Source of the DNA: Acidaminococcus fermentans
GTDB lineage: Bacteria > Bacillota > Negativicutes > Acidaminococcales > Acidaminococcaceae
Assembly: GCF_009696675.1 (NCBI RefSeq)
Contig: NZ_VULN01000003.1
Span: forward strand, 62,001 to 126,000
Length of the DNA: 64,000 nucleotides
Reading direction: 5' to 3'
The notes under the pieces were generated by a model that saw only the letters and a program-made list of their open reading frames with translations, was not told the DNA's origin and did not search any database. Made by a program: the position numbers and the translations under genes. How positions within the stretch are numbered: the stretch's first letter is position 1; every line of letters begins with the position of its first letter. Positions 8,464-41,659 of this stretch are shown here, in pieces.

Positions 8464-9852
8464 ATGAAAGAACCTGTAATCCATCTGGCCGGCCCGGCTG
8501 TGGAAGTGCCGGATATGCTCCTGGCCCGGGACGGCCGTGCTGCCGCCCAGAAAAAACTGCTGGAGCGGTATCACAAGCCGCTGCTGTTCTTCACCCAGAA
8601 CATCCCGGGGCCGGTGAAGACTTCTGTCCTGATCCATCTGGGGTTCCTGGAGGGAATCCGCCGGTTGGAAAAGGCCCTGGCAGAAGCCGGGATCCCCATC
8701 CTGTTCCAGAAGATCATTGACTGGAAAACCGGCTATGAAAAATACTATGTACTGGACGGGGATGCCCTCCGTATCAAGAAAATCGCCTGCACCATGGAAG
8801 GACAGGACCGGCTGGGCCGGCTCTATGACATGGATGTGCTGGCAGAAGACGGGCACAAGATTTCCCGGACGGACATCGGGCTCCCCGGCCGGCTGTGCCT
8901 GGTGTGCTCCCAGCCGGCCCAGGCCTGCGCCCGGAGCCGGAAGCACAGTGTGCCGGTGCTGGTGCGGAACATCCACCGGATATTGGAAAATTTTCTCATG
9001 GACCGGGTGGAACAGGCACTGCGCCAGGGACTCCAGGGAGAAGTGGATGCCACTCCCAAACCGGGGCTGGTGGACCGGGACAATCCGGGCGCTCACCGGG
9101 ACATGGACTGGCACACCTTTGCCCGGAGTACTGACGCCATTGTGCCCCATCTCCGGCAGATGGCTGAAAAAGGCTGGAACTGGGAAGGGGAGGACGAAGC
9201 CCTGTTTGCCGCCCTCCGGCCCATGGGGGCGGCGGCGGAAAAGGCCATGTTCCGGGCTACCGGGAATGTGAACACCCACAAGGGAATCATCTTTTCCCTG
9301 GGCCTTGTGACCAGCTTCACCCTCCGTCACCTGGCCCGGACCGGAAAGGTGGAAAGCGAGGCGGTGCTCCGGGAAATCGGAGCGGCGGTGACACCTCTTC
9401 TGGAACGGGATTTTGCCAAAATCGACCGGTACCATCCCCACACCCACGGAGAAGTGCTCTATGTGGAACAGGGGTGCCGGGGAATCCGGGGGGAAGCCAT
9501 GGACGGGTTCCCGGCGGTGGCAAAAATCGCCCTGCCGGCTCTGCGGAAGTTTCGGCAGGAAGGGAGACCGGACAACGAGGCCTATATCCAGACTCTGCTG
9601 CTGCTCCTGAGCCAAGTGGAAGACACCAACATCCTGAGCCGGTCCGATGCCGCCACCCTCCGGCAGGCCCAGGAAGAAGCCCGGGCTGTATTGGACCGGG
9701 GCGGTGCCTTCACCCCGGAAGGGATCCAGGCGGTGTGGGATCTGAACGCAAGCTTCGTGGAGAAGAACATCAGCCCCGGCGGCTGTGCCGATCTGCTGAT
9801 CCTGGCCATCTTCCTGGAGAAGATGGAGGGGCTGGGTCCAGCTGACCGTTGA
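8464..9852 (+). CDS. citXG: fused citX-citG: holo-citrate lyase synthase and triphosphoribosyl-dephospho-CoA synthase
   Basis: The 462-residue protein joins two cofactor enzymes. Residues 1 to about 175 are CitX-like (GRLYDMDVL at 118-126 and the R-x-C-L-x-x-C motif at 143-148) and transfer the prosthetic group to apo-CitD. Residues from about 180 to the end are CitG-like (TPKPGLVDRDNPGAHRDM near 197-214) and make the triphosphoribosyl-dephospho-CoA precursor from ATP and dephospho-CoA. Such fusions are known in other citrate-fermenting bacteria. It follows the LysR gene by 4 bases. Its last codons (Ala-Asp-Arg-stop) are read from a heptad repeat at 9841-9860, so the native C-terminus may have been altered by that repeat. 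Confidence 0.9.
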   Translation: MKEPVIHLAGPAVEVPDMLLARDGRAAAQKKLLERYHKPLLFFTQNIPGPVKTSVLIHLGFLEGIRRLEKALAEAGIPILFQKIIDWKTGYEKYYVLDGDALRIKKIACTMEGQDRLGRLYDMDVLAEDGHKISRTDIGLPGRLCLVCSQPAQACARSRKHSVPVLVRNIHRILENFLMDRVEQALRQGLQGEVDATPKPGLVDRDNPGAHRDMDWHTFARSTDAIVPHLRQMAEKGWNWEGEDEALFAALRPMGAAAEKAMFRATGNVNTHKGIIFSLGLVTSFTLRHLARTGKVESEAVLREIGAAVTPLLERDFAKIDRYHPHTHGEVLYVEQGCRGIRGEAMDGFPAVAKIALPALRKFRQEGRPDNEAYIQTLLLLLSQVEDTNILSRSDAATLRQAQEEARAVLDRGGAFTPEGIQAVWDLNASFVEKNISPGGCADLLILAIFLEKMEGLGPADR

Positions 9853-9860
9853 CTGCTGAC
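9841..9860. repeat. heptad repeat overlapping the citXG stop
   Basis: GCTGACC-GTTGACT-GCTGAC: three 7-base units with GAC in phase. The citXG TGA stop (9850-9852) is made by the second unit. A long terminator hairpin follows directly. Confidence 0.75.
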
Positions 9861-9864
9861 AAAA

Positions 9865-9912
9865 ATGGACCGTGAAAAAATGAGAAATCATTTTTTTACG
9901 GCCCATTTTTTT
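9865..9912. terminator. citXG terminator
   Basis: ATGG-ACCGTGAAAAAATGA (9865-9883) pairs with TCATTTTTTTACGGCCCAT (9888-9906), followed by more T. The inner GTGAAAAAATGA half-stem is shared with the terminator at 28281-28320, which also has heptads beside it. Confidence 0.85.
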
Positions 9913-9913
9913 C

Positions 9914-9942
9914 TTGACAAATTCCCACCAATTAACTATACT
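9914..9942 (+). promoter_or_regulatory. promoter of the Cys-leader / YeiH transcript
   Basis: TTGACA (9914-9919), 17-base spacer, TATACT (9937-9942): a near-consensus housekeeping promoter. The start of transcription would fall near 9950, about 60 bases before the leader ORF. Confidence 0.85.
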
Positions 9943-10010
9943 TTCCCTATGCAGAGAAATGCATATTGAAATCATAGGAATTACAAATCTGGAAATGGGG
10001 AGAAGAAATC

Positions 10011-10079
10011 ATGGGAATTCTGAACATGTGCTGCTGTTGTTGCCGAATGTGCAGCCACAGCGGAACGGGAGGCCGGTAA
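10011..10079 (+). CDS. cysteine-rich leader peptide, 22 codons
   Basis: This short ORF starts with ATG, has GGGGAG 8 bases upstream and ends at TAA 10077-10079. Residues 7-11 are five consecutive Cys (TGC TGC TGT TGT TGC) and residue 14 is a sixth. The stop codon sits in the loop of a GCCGG/CCGGC hairpin. It lies between a strong promoter and an intrinsic terminator upstream of a YeiH-family gene. A run of codons for one amino acid in such a leader is the hallmark of attenuation by charged-tRNA level; polycysteine leader ORFs that act this way are known in mycobacteria. The function as a Cys sensor here is inferred; a free metal-binding micropeptide is the alternative. Confidence 0.75.
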   Translation: MGILNMCCCCCRMCSHSGTGGR

Positions 10080-10103
10080 CCGGCATCCGGACAAGTGAAA
10101 AGA

Positions 10104-10271
10104 CTGCACAGAAAATCATCCGCAGCGGAGGGACTGGCCCCTGGGAAGCTGCCGCCGATGGAACATGGTTCCGATGGTGCTGCCAGCGGGAAATAGCCCG
10201 GCAGATGAGTCTGTGCAGACCCATGGTTGATTTTTTTGCGCGCCATCTGTCGGACAGGTGGCGCATTTTTT
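10104..10271 (+). promoter_or_regulatory. candidate attenuator: competing hairpins and terminator
   Basis: By eye: terminator stem GCGCCATCTGT (10240-10250) with ACAGGTGGCGC (10254-10264) and T-run 10266-10271. Competing antiterminator: CCGGCAGATG (10198-10207) with CATCTGTCGG (10244-10253), 10 pairs with one G-U. A third hairpin, TGCC (10181-10184) and CGGG (10187-10190) with CCCGGCA (10197-10203), would block the antiterminator. A 9-base long-range pairing joins 10104-10112 and 10210-10218. This mutually exclusive set fits transcription attenuation; energies were not computed. Confidence 0.6.
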
Positions 10272-10305
10272 ACGCCTCCTGAAAAAAATGCAGATGAGGT
10301 GGTTC

Positions 10306-11787
10306 ATGATGACAAACGAAAAAACGATTCCGGCGGTCCGTCCCACGGGACTGCTGGGCAGCGAAGACTGGTGGGCGGTATGGCTGGGCCTGTTCATTAC
10401 CCTGTTGGGCCTGGGGAAGATCTGGGGCTTTGACCTGCTGGGCTGGGCCGCCACTTTCGGGGTGTGGATCGATCCCGCCAAGGCGGTGGGCACCGGATCC
10501 AAGGCCTATGCCTGGCTGGGCAGCGCCGGAGCGCTGGCGGCCACCTGGCTGTTCACCCTGGGGGTCACTTCCCTGGGCGCCCATTTCATGAAGGCGGATG
10601 TGAAGAAGTTCGCCGGGGGATTCTCCGTGATCTACTGGATCACCATCCTGTCCAACATCCTGGGGAATTACGCCTATCTGGCCGCCACCCCCAACAAACG
10701 GGAAGCCTTCCACATCGGCTGGTCCCTGAGCCTGGGGGAACTGGGCTTTGTGTTCGCCCTGCTGGCCGGACTGGTGATCGGCAACTTCTTCCCGGGTCTG
10801 GCCCGGTACCTGTCCCATGCGGCCAAACCGGAGTGGTACATTAAAACCGGCATCGTGATCCTGGGGGCCAACATCGGGATCCAGGCCATCAGTGCCCTGG
10901 GCCTGGCCAGCACCGTCATCCTCCGGGGGCTGTGCGCTGTGGTGGAAGCCTATCTGATCTACTGGCCGGTGGTGTATTTTGTGGCCCGGAAATTCTTCAA
11001 ATTCACGCCGGAATGGGCCGCTCCCATGGCTTCCGGCATCTCCATCTGCGGGGTGGCTGCCGCCATTGCCACCGGCAGCGCCATCAAGGCCCGGCAGATC
11101 ATCCCCACCATCCTGGCGTCGGTGATCATCGTCTTCGTGGCGGTTGAACTGCTGATCCTGCCCTTTGCCGCCGCCTATTTCCTGCCGGGGGATCCCATGG
11201 TGGCCGGCTCCTGGCTGGGGCTGGTGGTGAAAAGTGACGGCGGGGCCGTGGCCTCCGGGGCCATTGCCGACAGCCTGATCCGCAGCCGTGCCCTGGAACT
11301 GTTCGGGGTCCGGTACCAGGAAGGATGGATCCTCATGGCGGCCACCACTTCCAAAGTGTTCATCGACATTTTCATCGGAGTCTGGTCCTTTATCCTGGCG
11401 GTGGTCTGGTCCGTGTACCATCTGAATGATCCCAAGGCTGCTGCCGGCGGCGGAAAGGTATCCAAAAAGGAAATCTGGAACCGGTTCCCCAAATTCATCC
11501 TGGGCTTCGTCCTGGCTCTGGTGGGGATCTTCCTGGCGGGCTGGGCCCATCCCTCCATTGTGGCCGGGGCCAAAGCCGGTGCCGGTCAGGCCAACCTGCT
11601 CCGGGCGGTGTTCTTCGGCCTGTGCTTCTTCTCCATCGGCCTGGTGACCAATGTGCGGAAGCTGTGGAAAGCCGGCCTGGGCCGGGTGATCGGGGTCTAT
11701 TCCGTAGCCCTGGCCGGGTTCATCATCTGGGTGGGCCTGGGCATCTCCTACATTTTCTATCACGGCATCCTGCCGCCTACCCTGTAA
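10306..11787 (+). CDS. YeiH/PSE-family (putative sulfate exporter) membrane protein
   Basis: The 493-residue polytopic membrane protein matches the conserved YeiH/UPF0324 family, called putative sulfate exporters; the IKTGIVILGANIGI segment and the SGISICGVAAAIATGSAIKA repeat region are characteristic. It is longer than the roughly 350-residue enterobacterial YeiH because of an extended N-terminus and an inserted loop. I start it at ATG 10306 (GAGG 7 bases upstream) rather than at earlier in-frame codons that would lie inside the terminator hairpin. Its expression is probably set by the Cys leader and attenuator upstream, which suggests a role in sulfur or cysteine metabolism. The transported substrate is unproven. 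Confidence 0.82.
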   Translation: MMTNEKTIPAVRPTGLLGSEDWWAVWLGLFITLLGLGKIWGFDLLGWAATFGVWIDPAKAVGTGSKAYAWLGSAGALAATWLFTLGVTSLGAHFMKADVKKFAGGFSVIYWITILSNILGNYAYLAATPNKREAFHIGWSLSLGELGFVFALLAGLVIGNFFPGLARYLSHAAKPEWYIKTGIVILGANIGIQAISALGLASTVILRGLCAVVEAYLIYWPVVYFVARKFFKFTPEWAAPMASGISICGVAAAIATGSAIKARQIIPTILASVIIVFVAVELLILPFAAAYFLPGDPMVAGSWLGLVVKSDGGAVASGAIADSLIRSRALELFGVRYQEGWILMAATTSKVFIDIFIGVWSFILAVVWSVYHLNDPKAAAGGGKVSKKEIWNRFPKFILGFVLALVGIFLAGWAHPSIVAGAKAGAGQANLLRAVFFGLCFFSIGLVTNVRKLWKAGLGRVIGVYSVALAGFIIWVGLGISYIFYHGILPPTL

Positions 11788-11817: not shown

Positions 11818-12039
11818 ATGGAAAGCGAAATCCTTACCAACGTCCATTCCACCGCCGATCAGTATTATGAAAGACAGGTGGTCCGTCCCACCGGGGCCAA
11901 AGTCCATGCCGCCCAACTGGAGGCTGACGAAGAAGAATACTTCCCCCTCCAGCCCATAGAGAAAAAACTCTGCGCCTGGTCCCTGGGAGTGGGACTGACG
12001 TTGATGGCCGTGTTCATCGGGGTGTTTGAGAGAATATAA
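11818..12039 (+). CDS. small membrane protein of unknown function, 73 residues
   Basis: I do not recognise this protein. It begins MESEILTNV after a GAAGGG site, is polar and acidic for the first 50 residues, and ends in one hydrophobic segment (about residues 52-70, ending GVFERI). It starts 30 bases after the YeiH-family gene with no terminator between, and a strong terminator follows, so the two form an operon. That pairing suggests a small accessory subunit or regulator of the transporter, which is inference from position. Confidence 0.7.
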   Translation: MESEILTNVHSTADQYYERQVVRPTGAKVHAAQLEADEEEYFPLQPIEKKLCAWSLGVGLTLMAVFIGVFERI

Positions 12040-12040
12040 A

Positions 12041-12076
12041 AAAAGAGCTGTTGCATGCGCAACAGCTCCTTTTTTT
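12041..12076. terminator. bidirectional terminator between the YeiH operon and sdaAA
   Basis: GAGCTGTTGC (12045-12054) and GCAACAGCTC (12059-12068) with A- and T-runs on both sides serve the two convergent transcripts. It is a variant of the GGGGCTGTTGCA terminator family found repeatedly in this window. Confidence 0.9.
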
Positions 12077-12959
12077 ATTCCTTCCCAAACACCTGCTCTT
12101 TCAATCTCTTCCCTGTCTTGGTGACGGCCAGGCCGCCGCCGGCGGTTTCTCTCAGGGAGGCGGGGAGAGCGCTGCCCACAGCCCGCATGGCTTCTACACA
12201 TTCATCCACCGGGATACAGGAACGGATCCCGGCCAGGGCCATGTCCGCTGCAGAGAAGGCGATGACCACCCCGCTGGCGTTCCGCTTGATGCAGGGGATT
12301 TCCACCAGTCCGGCCACCGGATCACATACCAGGCCCAGCTGGTTGGCAATGGCCATGGCACAGGCGTCCGCCGCCATCTGGGGAGTGCCCCCGGCCAGTT
12401 CCACCAGGGCTGCCGCTGCCATGCCGGAAGCACTGCCGCATTCTGCCTGGCAGCCTCCCTGGGCCCCGGCGATGCAGGCGTTCTGGGCGATGACCATACC
12501 GAAAGCGCCGGCGGTGAAGATGGACATGATCACATTCTTCCGGTCCATGCCCTTTTCTTCCATCATGGTCAGGAGACAGCCAGGGAGGATGCCGCAGCTG
12601 CCGGCGGTGGGGGTGGCCACGATCCGGCCCATGGAGGCATTGCAGCCTGCTACGGACAGGGCCCGGGCAATGGCGTGGTCGATGATGGTGCCGGAGAGGC
12701 CGCCGTTGGTCCGGGCGGTGTAGTCGTTCATTTTCCAGCCTTCCCCGCCGGTGAGTCCGGAAGTGGACTTCTGGTCTTTCTTTTCTCCGAATTTCACCGC
12801 ATCGATCATTACGTCCAGATCGGTGGACATCCGGTCGAATAGTTCTGCCTGGCTTTGTTCCATGGATTCCGCCTGGTCAGCCAGGACCAGTTCGCTGATT
12901 TTTTTGCCGCTTTTTTCTGCGGCTTCCACCAGTTCAGCAATGGATGTATAGGTAAACAT
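12075..12959 (-). CDS. sdaAA: L-serine dehydratase, iron-sulfur type, alpha subunit
   Basis: The 294-residue alpha subunit of the oxygen-sensitive [4Fe-4S] L-serine deaminase converts serine to pyruvate and ammonia in the cytoplasm. The conserved TGGEGWKMNDY region, GSCGILPGC and the QGGCQAECGSASG segment with candidate cluster cysteines are all present. The start MFTYTSI follows AAGGAGG. It lies 10 bases after sdaAB in the same transcript, as in other two-subunit enzymes. The neighbouring symporter probably supplies serine, making this a catabolic unit. Confidence 0.95.
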   Translation of the reverse strand: MFTYTSIAELVEAAEKSGKKISELVLADQAESMEQSQAELFDRMSTDLDVMIDAVKFGEKKDQKSTSGLTGGEGWKMNDYTARTNGGLSGTIIDHAIARALSVAGCNASMGRIVATPTAGSCGILPGCLLTMMEEKGMDRKNVIMSIFTAGAFGMVIAQNACIAGAQGGCQAECGSASGMAAAALVELAGGTPQMAADACAMAIANQLGLVCDPVAGLVEIPCIKRNASGVVIAFSAADMALAGIRSCIPVDECVEAMRAVGSALPASLRETAGGGLAVTKTGKRLKEQVFGKE

Positions 12960-12969
12960 GGTTTCCTCC

Positions 12970-13635
12970 TTAAATGGCACGGATCAGGATTACGTTGGTA
13001 ACGTACTGGACGGAACGGATGGCGTCGATTACATCCGCCGGGGGCATCCCGTCCACTTCGATGGTCATCATGGCAATGCCGCCCTTGACGGGACGGGTGA
13101 GCCGGAAGCTGCCGATGTTGATGTCCTTGTGTTTCTGCCACATAATATTGGTTACAGCCGCAATGACCCCCGGCCGGTCGTAATGGGGCACCAGGATGGT
13201 ATTCCGTTCCCCGGTGAAGTCCACCTTCATGCCGTCCACATAGTCCACCCGGATGTTGCCGCCGCCGATGCTGGCTCCCTGGACCGTGTGCTGGCTGCCG
13301 TCAGCACAGGTCACCTGGATCCGGGCGGTGTTGGGATGGGAATTGGGGATCTCCGTGGGGATGTAGGTGTAATGGATGCCTTTTTTGTCCGCAATGGAGA
13401 AGATGCTGCGGATCTCTTCAGAATAGCTGTGGTACCCCAGGATCCCGGCCAGCAGGGCCTTGTCCGTGCCGTGGCCTTTGTAGGTTTTGGCGAAGGAACC
13501 GGACAGTTCGATTTTAATGTCCTTGGGCTCGCTCTGGAGCAGCTTGTTGGCCACCCGTCCCAGACGGACGGCACCGGCAGTGTGGGAACTGGAAGGACCG
13601 ATCATCACCGGCCCGATAATATCGAAAATGTTCAT
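12970..13635 (-). CDS. sdaAB: L-serine dehydratase, iron-sulfur type, beta subunit
   Basis: The 221-residue beta subunit carries the N-terminal serine dehydratase beta domain (MIGPSSSHTAGAVRLG near residues 11-26) and a C-terminal ACT domain from about residue 148, a possible regulatory serine site. It is the first gene of the sdaAB-sdaAA pair, with AGGAGG upstream of the ATG. A promoter and a perfect 13-bp inverted repeat at the transcript start lie just upstream (13710-13791), so the pair is probably controlled separately from the symporter. Confidence 0.95.
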   Translation of the reverse strand: MNIFDIIGPVMIGPSSSHTAGAVRLGRVANKLLQSEPKDIKIELSGSFAKTYKGHGTDKALLAGILGYHSYSEEIRSIFSIADKKGIHYTYIPTEIPNSHPNTARIQVTCADGSQHTVQGASIGGGNIRVDYVDGMKVDFTGERNTILVPHYDRPGVIAAVTNIMWQKHKDINIGSFRLTRPVKGGIAMMTIEVDGMPPADVIDAIRSVQYVTNVILIRAI

Positions 13636-13709
13636 GATGAACCTCCTGAAAGTGAAATAAAAAAACGTTCCATTCTCTCTGTCTGACCGGAACCGGACGC
13701 AGGGAGCAG

Positions 13710-13791
13710 GCTGTCAGGGAAATCCGGTAAAACAGGAAGGATTGTCGGATGTTTCCCTGACAGCATACCCATGGTGCCTGAATCTTGTCAA
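13710..13791 (-). promoter_or_regulatory. sdaAB promoter with inverted repeat at the mRNA 5' end
   Basis: On the minus strand: -35 TTGACA (13786-13791), 18 bases, -10 TATGCT (13762-13767). GCTGTCAGGGAAA (13710-13722) and TTTCCCTGACAGC (13752-13764) form a perfect 13-bp inverted repeat whose outer arm overlaps the -10 and the expected start point. It could be an operator or a 5'-terminal RNA stem. Confidence 0.6.
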
Positions 13792-13843
13792 GCAGACAAC
13801 TGCAGAAGGGGATCAGATGGAGATGGAACGCTTTTGACGGAAA

Positions 13844-15034
13844 TTATTTTTTGATCCAGGTTTTGTAGATTTTGTCCACCACTACGGCGATGGCATTGTC
13901 CCCGGATACGTTGCAGGCGGTCCCGAAGGAATCCTGGGTAATGTACAGGGCAACCATCAGGGCGCAGATGGGGCCGTTGGGGTCGCCCTGTTCTTTCCCG
14001 AAGATCATCCACAGGAAGGGCAGGGCCGTCATGATGGAACCGCCGGGAGCACCCGGAGAAGCCACCATGGCAACCCTCAGGGTCATGATGAAGGGAATGA
14101 CCGTGCCCAGGTGGATGGGGATCTGGTACATAAGGCAGACCGCCGTGGCACAAGCAGTAATGGTGATCATGGAACCGCACATATGGATGTTGGCGCACAG
14201 AGGGATCACGAAGTTGCGGATCTGTTCGCAGACGCCGTCAGCCTTGGAGCATTCCAGGTTGACCGGAATAGTGGCTGCGGAAGACTGGGTCCCCAGGGCG
14301 GTGGTATAGCCCGGGATCTGGTTCTTCATCAGGGTGAAGGGGTTTTTCCCGCTGAAGGAACCGGCAACCATGAACTGTACGAACAACAGAATCAGATGCA
14401 TGGCGATGACCACCAGGAAAACTTTCCAGAGAACACTCAGGATCACGAAGGTCTTGCCGGAACGGGTCATGTCCACAAAGGTGCCGCAGATGTACAGCGG
14501 CAGGAAGGGAACAATGGCATGGGTCAGGACCTGGTCGATGATCTTGGAGAAATCTTTAAAGCAGTTGTACAGGGTATCCCCGATTTCCTTGCCCCGGAGG
14601 GAAGACAGGCACAGGCCCACGATGAAGGCCAGCACCACAGCAGAGATGGTGTCCAGGATGGGCGGAATGGAAATGGAGAAGAAGGGCGGCAGGCTCTTGC
14701 CGGCAGTCTTGGCCAGTTCTTCCAGCACCCCGGCGCTGATGAAGGACGGGAACAGGGTGTCTGCTACGGTAAAGGAGAAGGTCCCGCCAATCAGGGTGGA
14801 ACCGTAGGCGATAATGGCGGTAATCAGGAGCAGCTTGCCTGCGCCCTGGCTCAGATCTGCGATGCCCATGGTCACATAGGCCAGAATCATCAAAGGAATG
14901 ACGAATTTCAGGAAATTGCTGAAGATGCCGGAAAGAGTAACGACGGTACGGCAGACATCTTCCGGCAGATACTGCCCAATAAGGATACCAATGATAATGG
15001 CGATGATGATTTTTGGTACAAGACCGAGTTTCAT
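13844..15034 (-). CDS. dicarboxylate/amino acid:cation symporter (DAACS family), likely serine uptake
   Basis: The 396-residue membrane protein has the DAACS fold: eight hydrophobic helices, a serine-rich re-entrant region (TQSSAATIPV near residue 270) and the NIHMCGS segment. The family couples sodium or protons to uptake of Glu, Asp, dicarboxylates, or Ser/Thr (SstT branch). Position directly upstream of the serine dehydratase genes on the same strand suggests serine as substrate, which is inference. The start has GGGGAGG upstream. It is divergent from a LysR gene, with a TCGATTTAATCGA palindrome between them just upstream of its -35. Confidence 0.88.
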   Translation of the reverse strand: MKLGLVPKIIIAIIIGILIGQYLPEDVCRTVVTLSGIFSNFLKFVIPLMILAYVTMGIADLSQGAGKLLLITAIIAYGSTLIGGTFSFTVADTLFPSFISAGVLEELAKTAGKSLPPFFSISIPPILDTISAVVLAFIVGLCLSSLRGKEIGDTLYNCFKDFSKIIDQVLTHAIVPFLPLYICGTFVDMTRSGKTFVILSVLWKVFLVVIAMHLILLFVQFMVAGSFSGKNPFTLMKNQIPGYTTALGTQSSAATIPVNLECSKADGVCEQIRNFVIPLCANIHMCGSMITITACATAVCLMYQIPIHLGTVIPFIMTLRVAMVASPGAPGGSIMTALPFLWMIFGKEQGDPNGPICALMVALYITQDSFGTACNVSGDNAIAVVVDKIYKTWIKK

Positions 15035-15111
15035 GAAAACTAACCTCCCCTGAACTTGACAAACCGCTTCCCGCCGGCTGGGAAGCTTGCGTTTGACTTT
15101 TCTGTTTATTC

Positions 15112-15163
15112 AGTGTACTATGGTTGTACTCATAAAGCAAATTAATAAACTCGATTTAATCGA
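15112..15163 (-). promoter_or_regulatory. symporter promoter with LysR-type operator
   Basis: On the minus strand: palindrome TCGATTTAATCGA (15151-15163, a perfect T-N11-A box), then -35 TTGCTT (15135-15140), 17 bases, -10 TACACT (15112-15117). The box lies in the divergent region shared with the LysR gene at 15201, fitting activation of the symporter and autoregulation. Confidence 0.65.
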
Positions 15164-15200
15164 TGAAAATTTTTAATAACAACAAGGGGCTGTTGACAAA

Positions 15201-16160
15201 ATGGAACTAAGAGAATTAAAAAGCTTTCTGAAAATTATGGAACTGGAAAGTTTCTCCCGGGCGGCGAAGGAACTGGGGTACTCACAGTCCGCCCTCAGTG
15301 TACAAATTCATTCTCTGGAAAATGAGCTGGGGGTCCGTCTTTTTGACCGGCTGGGCAAGCAGGTAACTCTGACTCCTCCTGGCAGGCAGCTGGCCCGGCG
15401 GGTACTGCCCATTCTCCAGGAGGTGGAGGAACTGGAGAATGTGATGCACAACCGGCCGCCGGCAGAAGCCCTGCGGATCGGCATGATCGAAAGCCTGTGC
15501 AAGGCCCACATGCCCCAGGTGATGGATTACGTATGCCGGAACCTGCCCCAGCTCCATATCACCATCACCATCGATTCGCCCAGTGTGCTGCTGGACGCCC
15601 TGAACCACAACAAGGTGGATCTGGTGTATGTACTGGACAAGCCTTTATATGATGGAAAATGGGAAAAGGTTTTCCAGAAACAGGAGAATATTGTGTTTGT
15701 GTGTTCTGTGGATTCTCCGCTGGCCCGGGAAAAAGACCTGAAACTGGACCAGGTGATCCGCCAACCCTTTTTCCTGACGGAAAAGGCAGACAACTACCGG
15801 CTGAGCCTGGACCAGCAGCTGGCGGCCCGGCAGCTGGCCCTGAACCCTATATTGGAAGTCAGCGATACCGGATTCATCCTGGATATGGTCCAGCGGGGAC
15901 TGGGCCTGTCCTTCCTGCCCCAGTACGTGGTGGAAAACAGCCCCTACCGGGACCGGCTGCAGATCCTCCAGGTGAAGGATTTCCACATGCACATGTACCG
16001 GCAGCTGTTCTACCACAAGGACAAATGGCTGACCCAGGCCATGAAAGTGTTCCTCCGGCTGGCACTCCGGGAGAATCCTCCGGACAAAGGGGAGAACCCC
16101 CCGGATTTTTCCTGGAATAGGGAGAAGGACTCTTGCACGGACAAGGGGAGTATGATATAA
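15201..16160 (+). CDS. LysR-family regulator, divergent from the symporter
   Basis: The 319-residue protein has an N-terminal winged helix-turn-helix (residues about 1-60, with SFSRAAKELGYSQSALSVQ) and a LysR effector-binding domain. It begins MELRELKSFL. The divergent arrangement with the symporter and sda genes and the palindrome at 15151-15163 make it the likely regulator of serine uptake, and perhaps of degradation. The last 20 residues are polar and overlap the rpmE promoter, whose -10 (16156-16161) covers the stop codon. Confidence 0.88.
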   Translation: MELRELKSFLKIMELESFSRAAKELGYSQSALSVQIHSLENELGVRLFDRLGKQVTLTPPGRQLARRVLPILQEVEELENVMHNRPPAEALRIGMIESLCKAHMPQVMDYVCRNLPQLHITITIDSPSVLLDALNHNKVDLVYVLDKPLYDGKWEKVFQKQENIVFVCSVDSPLAREKDLKLDQVIRQPFFLTEKADNYRLSLDQQLAARQLALNPILEVSDTGFILDMVQRGLGLSFLPQYVVENSPYRDRLQILQVKDFHMHMYRQLFYHKDKWLTQAMKVFLRLALRENPPDKGENPPDFSWNREKDSCTDKGSMI

Positions 16161-41318: not shown

Positions 41319-41405
41319 GCGGGCATGGCGGAACTGGCAGACGCGCTAGCTTCAGGAGCTAGTGGGGGCAACCCCGTGGAGGTTCAATTCCTCTTGCCCG
41401 CACCA
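41319..41405 (+). tRNA. tRNA-Leu (anticodon CAG), copy 1
   Basis: An 87-base class II tRNA with acceptor GCGGGCA/TGCCCGC, anticodon stem CTAGC/GCTAG around TTCAGGA (anticodon CAG), a long variable arm (GGGGGCAACCCC), T-arm GGTTCAATTC and an encoded CCA. It is identical to the copy at 41573-41659. Confidence 0.97.
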
Positions 41406-41435
41406 AACTTTTCACCTCAGCAATCACACAACTTT

Positions 41436-41521
41436 GCGGTTGTGGCGGAAAGGCAGACGCGTCAGCTTGAGGGGCTGGTGAGGGAAACCTCATGCGGGTT
41501 CAAGTCCCGCCAACCGCACCA
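41436..41521 (+). tRNA. tRNA-Leu (anticodon GAG)
   Basis: An 86-base class II tRNA with acceptor GCGGTTG/CAACCGC, anticodon loop TTGAGGG (anticodon GAG), long variable arm, T-arm GGTTCAAGTC and encoded CCA. It lies between two identical tRNA-Leu(CAG) genes. Confidence 0.96.
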
Positions 41522-41572
41522 ACTTTCCAATACCGGGGGAAAAGCGAGAGGGCTCGACAACAAATTTCATAT

Positions 41573-41659
41573 GCGGGCATGGCGGAACTGGCAGACGCGC
41601 TAGCTTCAGGAGCTAGTGGGGGCAACCCCGTGGAGGTTCAATTCCTCTTGCCCGCACCA
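41573..41659 (+). tRNA. tRNA-Leu (anticodon CAG), copy 2
   Basis: The same 87-base sequence as 41319-41405, with encoded CCA. A hairpin terminator follows. Confidence 0.97.

Follow-up and report, generated by a model that had tools for sequence, protein, structure and literature searches.

A cysteine-rich leader reading frame over an apparent SAM-I riboswitch relic upstream of a PSE/YeiH-type transporter gene

S-boxes (SAM-I riboswitches) are textbook elements, and an S-box of the layout considered here is ON at low SAM. The conserved SAM-contact positions of the SAM-I family, which include G11, A12, A45, C47 and A61, are listed in PMC3764141. Attenuators based on polycysteine upstream open reading frames (uORFs) have been described in mycobacteria (Canestrari 2020, as cited in PMC13236596), and Cys-codon leader ORFs without conserved terminators are reported from mycobacteria and some other Actinobacteria (PMC1262725). 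In the Negativicutes, HisR repression rather than attenuation has been reported (PMC9413887). Our search of the open-access literature found no paper that places a SAM riboswitch or a Cys leader before the gene studied here, and no description of a Cys leader that sits on top of an S-box or replaces one.

The leader analysed here precedes a PSE/YeiH-type transporter gene in a 64-kb stretch of DNA (the window, meaning the whole stretch). A preliminary description had proposed a Cys attenuator at this position; its Cys-rich ORF, terminator and alternative pairing are indeed conserved, but the elements 3' of the ORF appear to be those of a decayed SAM-I riboswitch. Our best explanation, to which we give a probability of about 0.5, is ribosome-mediated Cys attenuation built on this S-box relic, in which Cys starvation would turn sulfur import on.

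The transporter gene, its orthologues and its promoter

The regulated gene (10306–11787, forward strand, as are all features of the leader) encodes a PSE/YeiH-type transporter according to its family match (PF03601). Against TIGR00698 (YeiH) the protein scores only 34.3 of 232.6 bits, far below the cut-off, which places it in a distinct subfamily of about 492 amino acids. A small ORF of 73 amino acids with no family match (11818–12039, forward strand) is a possible second gene of the operon; the region further downstream (12075–16160) holds serine ammonia-lyase subunit genes, an SstT-like transporter and a LysR regulator, the best NCBIfam match of which is YeiE (133.7 of 480 bits, below the cut-off).

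Relatives of the transporter at E 1e-30 or better were present in 33 of 380 Negativicutes genomes, and the gene is missing from six of the nine genomes of the window's own genus, taken to be Acidaminococcus on the strength of gene content and neighbours. One orthologous locus (L008) differs hardly at all from the window. L009, from a third species of the genus, shares 92% protein identity in the transporter and 65% identity at fourfold sites. The next closest orthologues belong to the Megasphaera group, namely L014 (83%; named record Megasphaera sp. NM10, L041) and L015 (75%; M. cerevisiae, L042). Neighbours of the orthologues include PLP-fold cysK-like, Cys/Met-metabolism PLP, homocysteine S-methyltransferase, ThiF/ThiS, JAB and siroheme sulfite/nitrite reductase genes. 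In L042–L044 and L105 the PSE transporter adjoins genes for ThiF/ThiS-like, JAB and siroheme sulfite/nitrite reductase proteins, to which L044 adds a Cys/Met-metabolism PLP enzyme; the neighbourhood resembles a protein-thiocarboxylate sulfur assimilation cluster.

A sigma-70-type promoter (TTGACA-17-TATACT, 9914–9942) is present as previously noted, with 11 of 12 consensus matches compared with 0.4 such sites in shuffles of the region, and matching promoters were found in the leaders of L009, L014 and L015. Just after the -10 element, where the mRNA is predicted to begin, lies the inverted repeat TATGCA-GAGAAA-TGCATA (9948–9965). Inverted repeats occupy the same place in L009, L014, L015 and L016, the forms observed being TATGCA-N6-TGCATA, ACAT-TGCA-ATGT and AAACAT-N5-ATGTTT; stem sequence and loop length thus vary among the orthologues, a pattern more suggestive of a conserved hairpin at the 5' terminus than of a dimer operator. 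The operator was rejected, as spacers of 4, 5 and 6 nt are better accommodated by a hairpin, and the repeat is probably the 5'-terminal hairpin of the mRNA. The exact 12-mer ACATTGCAATGT has one copy in each of two genomes, at this promoter both times. The L016 orthologue retains the promoter and 5' palindrome, has neither an S-box match nor a Cys ORF, and carries another short stem-rich leader instead. Between citXG and the promoter there is an AT-rich 14-bp hairpin (9870–9901) with T on one flank and A on the other, a probable bidirectional terminator.

The SAM-I-like fold, the antiterminator and the terminator

With permissive Rfam thresholds, RF00162 aligned end to end with 10113–10211, behind the leader ORF, and scored 29.6 bits (E 1e-4). 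This falls short of the gathering score, 44.4 bits, so that a standard Rfam scan does not report this region and its covariance-model score leaves it outside the SAM-I family; three canonical S-boxes elsewhere in the same genome, before metK and methionine-transporter genes (gene names read from sequence), score 80–86 bits. No other RNA class was matched in the leader at the gathering score. A T-box (RF00230) was matched neither in the window at that score nor in 9850–10350 at E 10. The whole genome holds 17 T-boxes, which makes the T-box the normal means of tRNA sensing here and an amino-acid leader-peptide attenuator unusual in this genome. Three tandem tRNA genes of 83–84 nt in the window (41319–41656; 53.5, 51.7 and 53.5 bits) are probably copies.

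Both MFE and centroid folds gave the four-way junction P1–P4, with P2 at 10122–10152 containing an internal loop, P3 at 10153–10179, P4 at 10181–10203 and a possible pseudoknot between CTGG (10134–10137) and CCAG (10183–10186). The leader was more stable than its shuffles, with z-scores of -3.25 for 9950–10280 and -3.27 for 10098–10225. The preliminary description had listed 10181–10203 as a third hairpin; it exists, but as the P4 position of the S-box fold. That description had also called the 160-base distance between the Cys codons and the terminator unusually long, which is explained by the S-box junction lying in between. The 29.6-bit RF00162 match had been missed; by alignment and fold, the body of the leader (10104–10218) is a degenerate SAM-I riboswitch. 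What follows the ORF is therefore no newly built attenuator, and its antiterminator and terminator are those that the riboswitch already had before it decayed.

The S-box letters GGAGGGACTGGCCC and GGTGC and the pseudoknot letters CTGG/CCAG are retained in the window. Comparison with L014 showed that J1/2 AGA (G11, A12) is deleted, that CCG stands in place of CAA (A45, A46), that A replaces C47 and that J3/4 AAUU (A61, A62) is deleted, leaving none of the contact positions G11, A12, A45, C47 and A61 intact. Loss of the SAM sensor in the window is well supported by these changes. Canonical S-boxes do lie upstream of the orthologous gene in L014 (86.8 bits) and L015 (86.2 bits); no SAM-I match was found in the examined leaders of more distant orthologues. 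In L009 there was no match up to E 10 and the core letters have all gone, while the junction topology remains (P1, P2 with its internal loop, P3 and P4); three branches at like positions were obtained in 4 of 1000 shuffles of the L009 interior. The scaffold has thus outlived the pocket, and a new ligand pocket common to the window and L009 is unlikely, as no unpaired core is found in both.

The P1 5' strand (10104–10120) consists of an outer extension, CTGCACAGA (10104–10112), and the inner S-box strand TCATC (10116–10120); the 3' strand (10204–10218) consists of GATGA (10204–10208) and the outer extension TCTGTGCAG (10210–10218). The pairing of 10104–10112 with 10210–10218 had been put forward as a relay; the pairing exists, but it extends the P1 of the S-box, with nine pairs in the window and seven, one of them G-U, in L009. 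No such extension was present in the Megasphaera-group S-boxes of L014 and L015. The antiterminator 5' strand CCGGCAGATG (10198–10207) pairs with 10244–10253 and has its homologues in the antiterminators that belong to the Megasphaera-group S-boxes; the alternative pairing previously described between these segments is therefore present, with one G-U, and conserved as the S-box antiterminator. The intrinsic terminator (10240–10271) was likewise recovered by scan, as 10240–10264 plus U-tract. Homologous terminators occupy the equivalent place in L014 and L015, and the CATCTGT arm is conserved in L009, L014 and L015. The window therefore contains both an intrinsic terminator and a mutually exclusive antiterminator, as an attenuator requires.

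In ligand-free folding up to the 5' arm of the terminator, the antiterminator reached 0.98 in both L014 and L015, compared with 0.00 in the window and in L009, where the ligand-free preference for the antiterminator that is expected of SAM-I is thus absent. According to these models the extended P1 locks the RNA of the window and L009 in the terminator state without ligand. Such a SAM-independent OFF state would need some other means of opening P1.

The Cys-rich leader ORF and the modelled effect of a stalled ribosome

The leader ORF MGILNMCCCCCRMCSHSGTGGR (10011–10079) has 22 codons and is preceded by the Shine–Dalgarno sequence GGGGAG (9997–10002) 8 nt before its ATG. Its Cys codons lie at 10029–10043 and 10050–10052; the first stretch is the only run of five TGY codons in the 64 kb, and 100 shuffles gave none. 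The ORF, its ribosome site and its five consecutive Cys codons are thus as first described. At the equivalent place L009 has MENRFNFVCMCCHCQRMCSDNAESMG, which stays in frame across a 12-nt insertion and has AGGAG at the same 8-nt spacing, and in L015 a probable homologue, MRYLKNLTIMCCNCI, sits between promoter and S-box. The stretches compare as CCCCCRMC (window), CMCCHCQRMC (L009) and MCCNC (L015), sharing MCCxC (MCCCC, MCCHC and MCCNC respectively) 64–80 nt before P1. The polycysteine run, the conservation of which had been proposed as a check, is accordingly not kept as a run in L009 or L015; the conserved feature appears from these comparisons to be the Cys-rich ORF with MCCxC, the five-Cys run being particular to the window.

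A Shine–Dalgarno sequence followed by an ORF of 6–30 codons with three Cys in five codons occurred in 4 of 91 orthologue leaders compared with 0.2 in shuffles, although one of the four, L027, lies inside the upstream coding sequence; the leaders that bear a Cys ORF are those of the window, L008, L009 and probably L015/L042. Both the ribosome site and the Cys richness of the leader ORF are therefore kept in L009 and probably in M. cerevisiae. Across the 380 Negativicutes genomes, ATG-TGY-TGY-NNY-TGY followed by GGACTGG within 67–97 nt was found in the window, its near twin, M. cerevisiae and one other, the last being inside a coding sequence and looking like chance. A looser combination of Cys codons and S-box core matched in 18 genomes, and the listed matches outside this locus look like chance in coding DNA. 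Runs of four TGY codons are common across the genus, where a poly-Cys-like search was uninformative, and substitutions in the leader ORF showed no clear codon periodicity, so that codon-position counts alone do not prove coding selection.

The GCCGG-TAA-CCGGC hairpin noted previously, with the leader stop codon in its loop, is present at 10072–10084, but L009 does not preserve it in this form. Folding predicted a further leader hairpin (10031–10063), with the Cys codons on one arm and seg1, the sequence TGTGCAG (10048–10054), on the other. L009 has a comparable hairpin in a shifted register, and the apparent compensatory changes were not counted as evidence. Seg1 lies inside the ORF just 3' of the Cys run and is a copy of the P1 3' strand; its complement is CTGCACA of the P1 5' strand (10104–10110), and neither sequence differs in L009.

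With a ribosome placed on Cys1–3, and before the P1 3' strand was included, seg1 paired with the P1 5' strand at 0.70–0.95 in the window and 0.89–0.92 in L009, compared with 0.00–0.01 in both without a ribosome. This stall pairing ranked in the top 3–4% of 200 leader shuffles for both sequences. The contrast between stalled and other states was matched by 85 of 200 shuffled leaders for the window (not significant), in part because its P1 5' strand finds other partners within the leader when no ribosome is present; for L009 it was matched by 0 of 200 as long as the P1 3' strand was absent, and by 34 of 200 once that strand was included (not significant). After addition of the 3' strand, seg1 pairing in L009 was 0.50 (Cys2) and 0.82 (Cys3), values that drop with shorter 5' context, and in the window P1 won (0.92–0.99). 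Full folding of the window with ribosome masks kept P1 and the terminator (1.00) in every ribosome state, and an equilibrium switch driven by ribosome position was rejected for the window. Folding with and without a ribosome, as proposed earlier, thus gives a seg1 relay pairing on stalling in both sequences, with a final outcome that shifts partly in L009 and hardly in the window, which stays terminated at equilibrium. The relay is informed by two diverged sequences, the leader hairpins of which differ in register, and no relay pairing was found in the L015 leader. We regard a Cys relay as a plausible and reasonable design, conserved between the two, which in these models would have to act kinetically.

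Proposed sensor replacement, rival explanations and comparison with known systems

The terminator is homologous throughout a series at one orthologous gene: an S-box alone (L014), a Cys ORF together with an intact S-box (L015), a damaged S-box with a Cys ORF (window), and the junction only with a Cys ORF (L009). We suggest, somewhat more tentatively than the attenuation itself, that decay reduced the SAM aptamer to a scaffold without ligand, that the Cys-codon leader took over P1, antiterminator and terminator, and that a two-sensor intermediate survives in M. cerevisiae. The S-box would have lost its ligand pocket and kept its actuator (P1, the four-way junction, antiterminator and terminator), control apparently having been handed to the upstream Cys-rich ORF. 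By default the extended P1 would form without ligand, the antiterminator would be blocked and transcription would stop at 10264–10271. When charged Cys-tRNA is scarce, a ribosome may stall at the first Cys codons, opening the leader hairpin and freeing seg1, which would pair with the P1 5' strand (10104–10110) before the P1 3' strand is made; with P1 so delayed, 10198–10207 could pair with 10244–10253 and the transporter gene would be read.

That the window instead holds a divergent but working SAM riboswitch, to which the Cys ORF contributes little, seems improbable. Its RF00162 match is significant, GGAGGGACTGGCCC, GGTGC and the pseudoknot letters are kept, and canonical S-boxes control the orthologous gene in Megasphaera-group bacteria; however, G11, A12 and A61/A62 are deleted, A45 and C47 are changed, P1 forms without ligand in folding, and in L009 the core has gone while P1 and the terminator stay. 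A variant riboswitch with a changed ligand, such as a cysteine-related compound, might account for the altered contact bases amid conserved stems and pseudoknot letters in the window, but it is to our mind equally improbable: no pocket letters are common to the window and L009, so that no common new pocket is visible, and the extended P1 needs no ligand.

Alternatively, the leader peptide could itself be the sensor, its Cys/His motif binding metal or reporting redox in the manner of the proteobacterial Cys-motif copper uORFs; a copper-responsive uORF is described in PMC9426467. The gene and the neighbours of its orthologues point to sulfur assimilation rather than metal handling, the ancestral control was by SAM, and the stop codon, where release would occur, lies about 24 nt away from P1 and has no evident connection with a nascent-peptide signal, making this quite unlikely even though the fourth position of MCCxC is C, H or N and the Cys codons of L009 do not form an unbroken run. 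Somewhat less unlikely, though still doubtful, is a decaying element, that is, a constitutive terminator with weak read-through before the gene and an incidental Cys ORF. It would fit the terminator value of 1.00 that the window gave in every state modelled and the absence of the gene from six of nine genus genomes, but not the retention in L009 of Shine–Dalgarno sequence, frame, Cys codons, P1, junction topology and terminator despite 65% fourfold-site identity, nor an intact transporter with 92% identity there.

For Cys attenuation on the S-box relic, the simplest reading of the response is that Cys or sulfur starvation induces the gene and that the transporter imports a sulfur compound. Both the logic of the ancestral S-box and the sulfur-assimilation neighbours favour induction by Cys scarcity, as proposed in the preliminary description, and this would be the expected sign. 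Salmonella requires its YeiH, a transporter of unknown direction, when under sulfite stress (PMC12880088); a tie to sulfur starvation would argue that this uncharacterised PSE/YeiH-type transporter imports, and does not export as the family name has it. If this reading is true, one RNA regulator may have been caught mid-change of sensor in an anaerobic gut-type bacterium. Sensor changes of RNA regulators are mostly inferred from scattered end points, and here a graded series exists at one gene, with four short leaders (L014, L015, window and L009) that make sensor replacement testable at the bench. Sub-threshold riboswitch matches can, by the same token, be relics under another control.

The window leader works like an attenuator, descends from an S-box and departs from SAM-I in key respects. 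It resembles SAM-I (RF00162) in the P1–P4 four-way junction, the letters GGAGGGACTGGCCC and GGTGC, an antiterminator formed from the P1 3' side against the terminator arm, and the canonical control of the orthologous gene in the Megasphaera group; it differs in its sub-cut-off score (29.6 bits), the loss of J1/2 AGA, A45/A46/C47 and J3/4 AAUU, the extended, ligand-independent P1 and the Cys-rich ORF upstream. As in the mycobacterial polycysteine uORFs, a short ORF with a run of Cys codons precedes a sulfur-related gene, although those uORFs are leaderless with no intrinsic terminator found (PMC1262725), whereas the window has a Shine–Dalgarno sequence, intrinsic terminator, antiterminator and S-box scaffold. 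The His-leader attenuators of Firmicutes (PMC9413887) share leader peptide attenuation in low-GC Gram-positive relatives but have histidine as the regulatory amino acid. As in trp/his-type attenuators, a ribosome on regulatory codons would choose among competing hairpins and a terminator; in the window, by contrast, an aptamer-derived junction of about 115 nt stands between ORF and terminator, and the choice would be relayed through P1.
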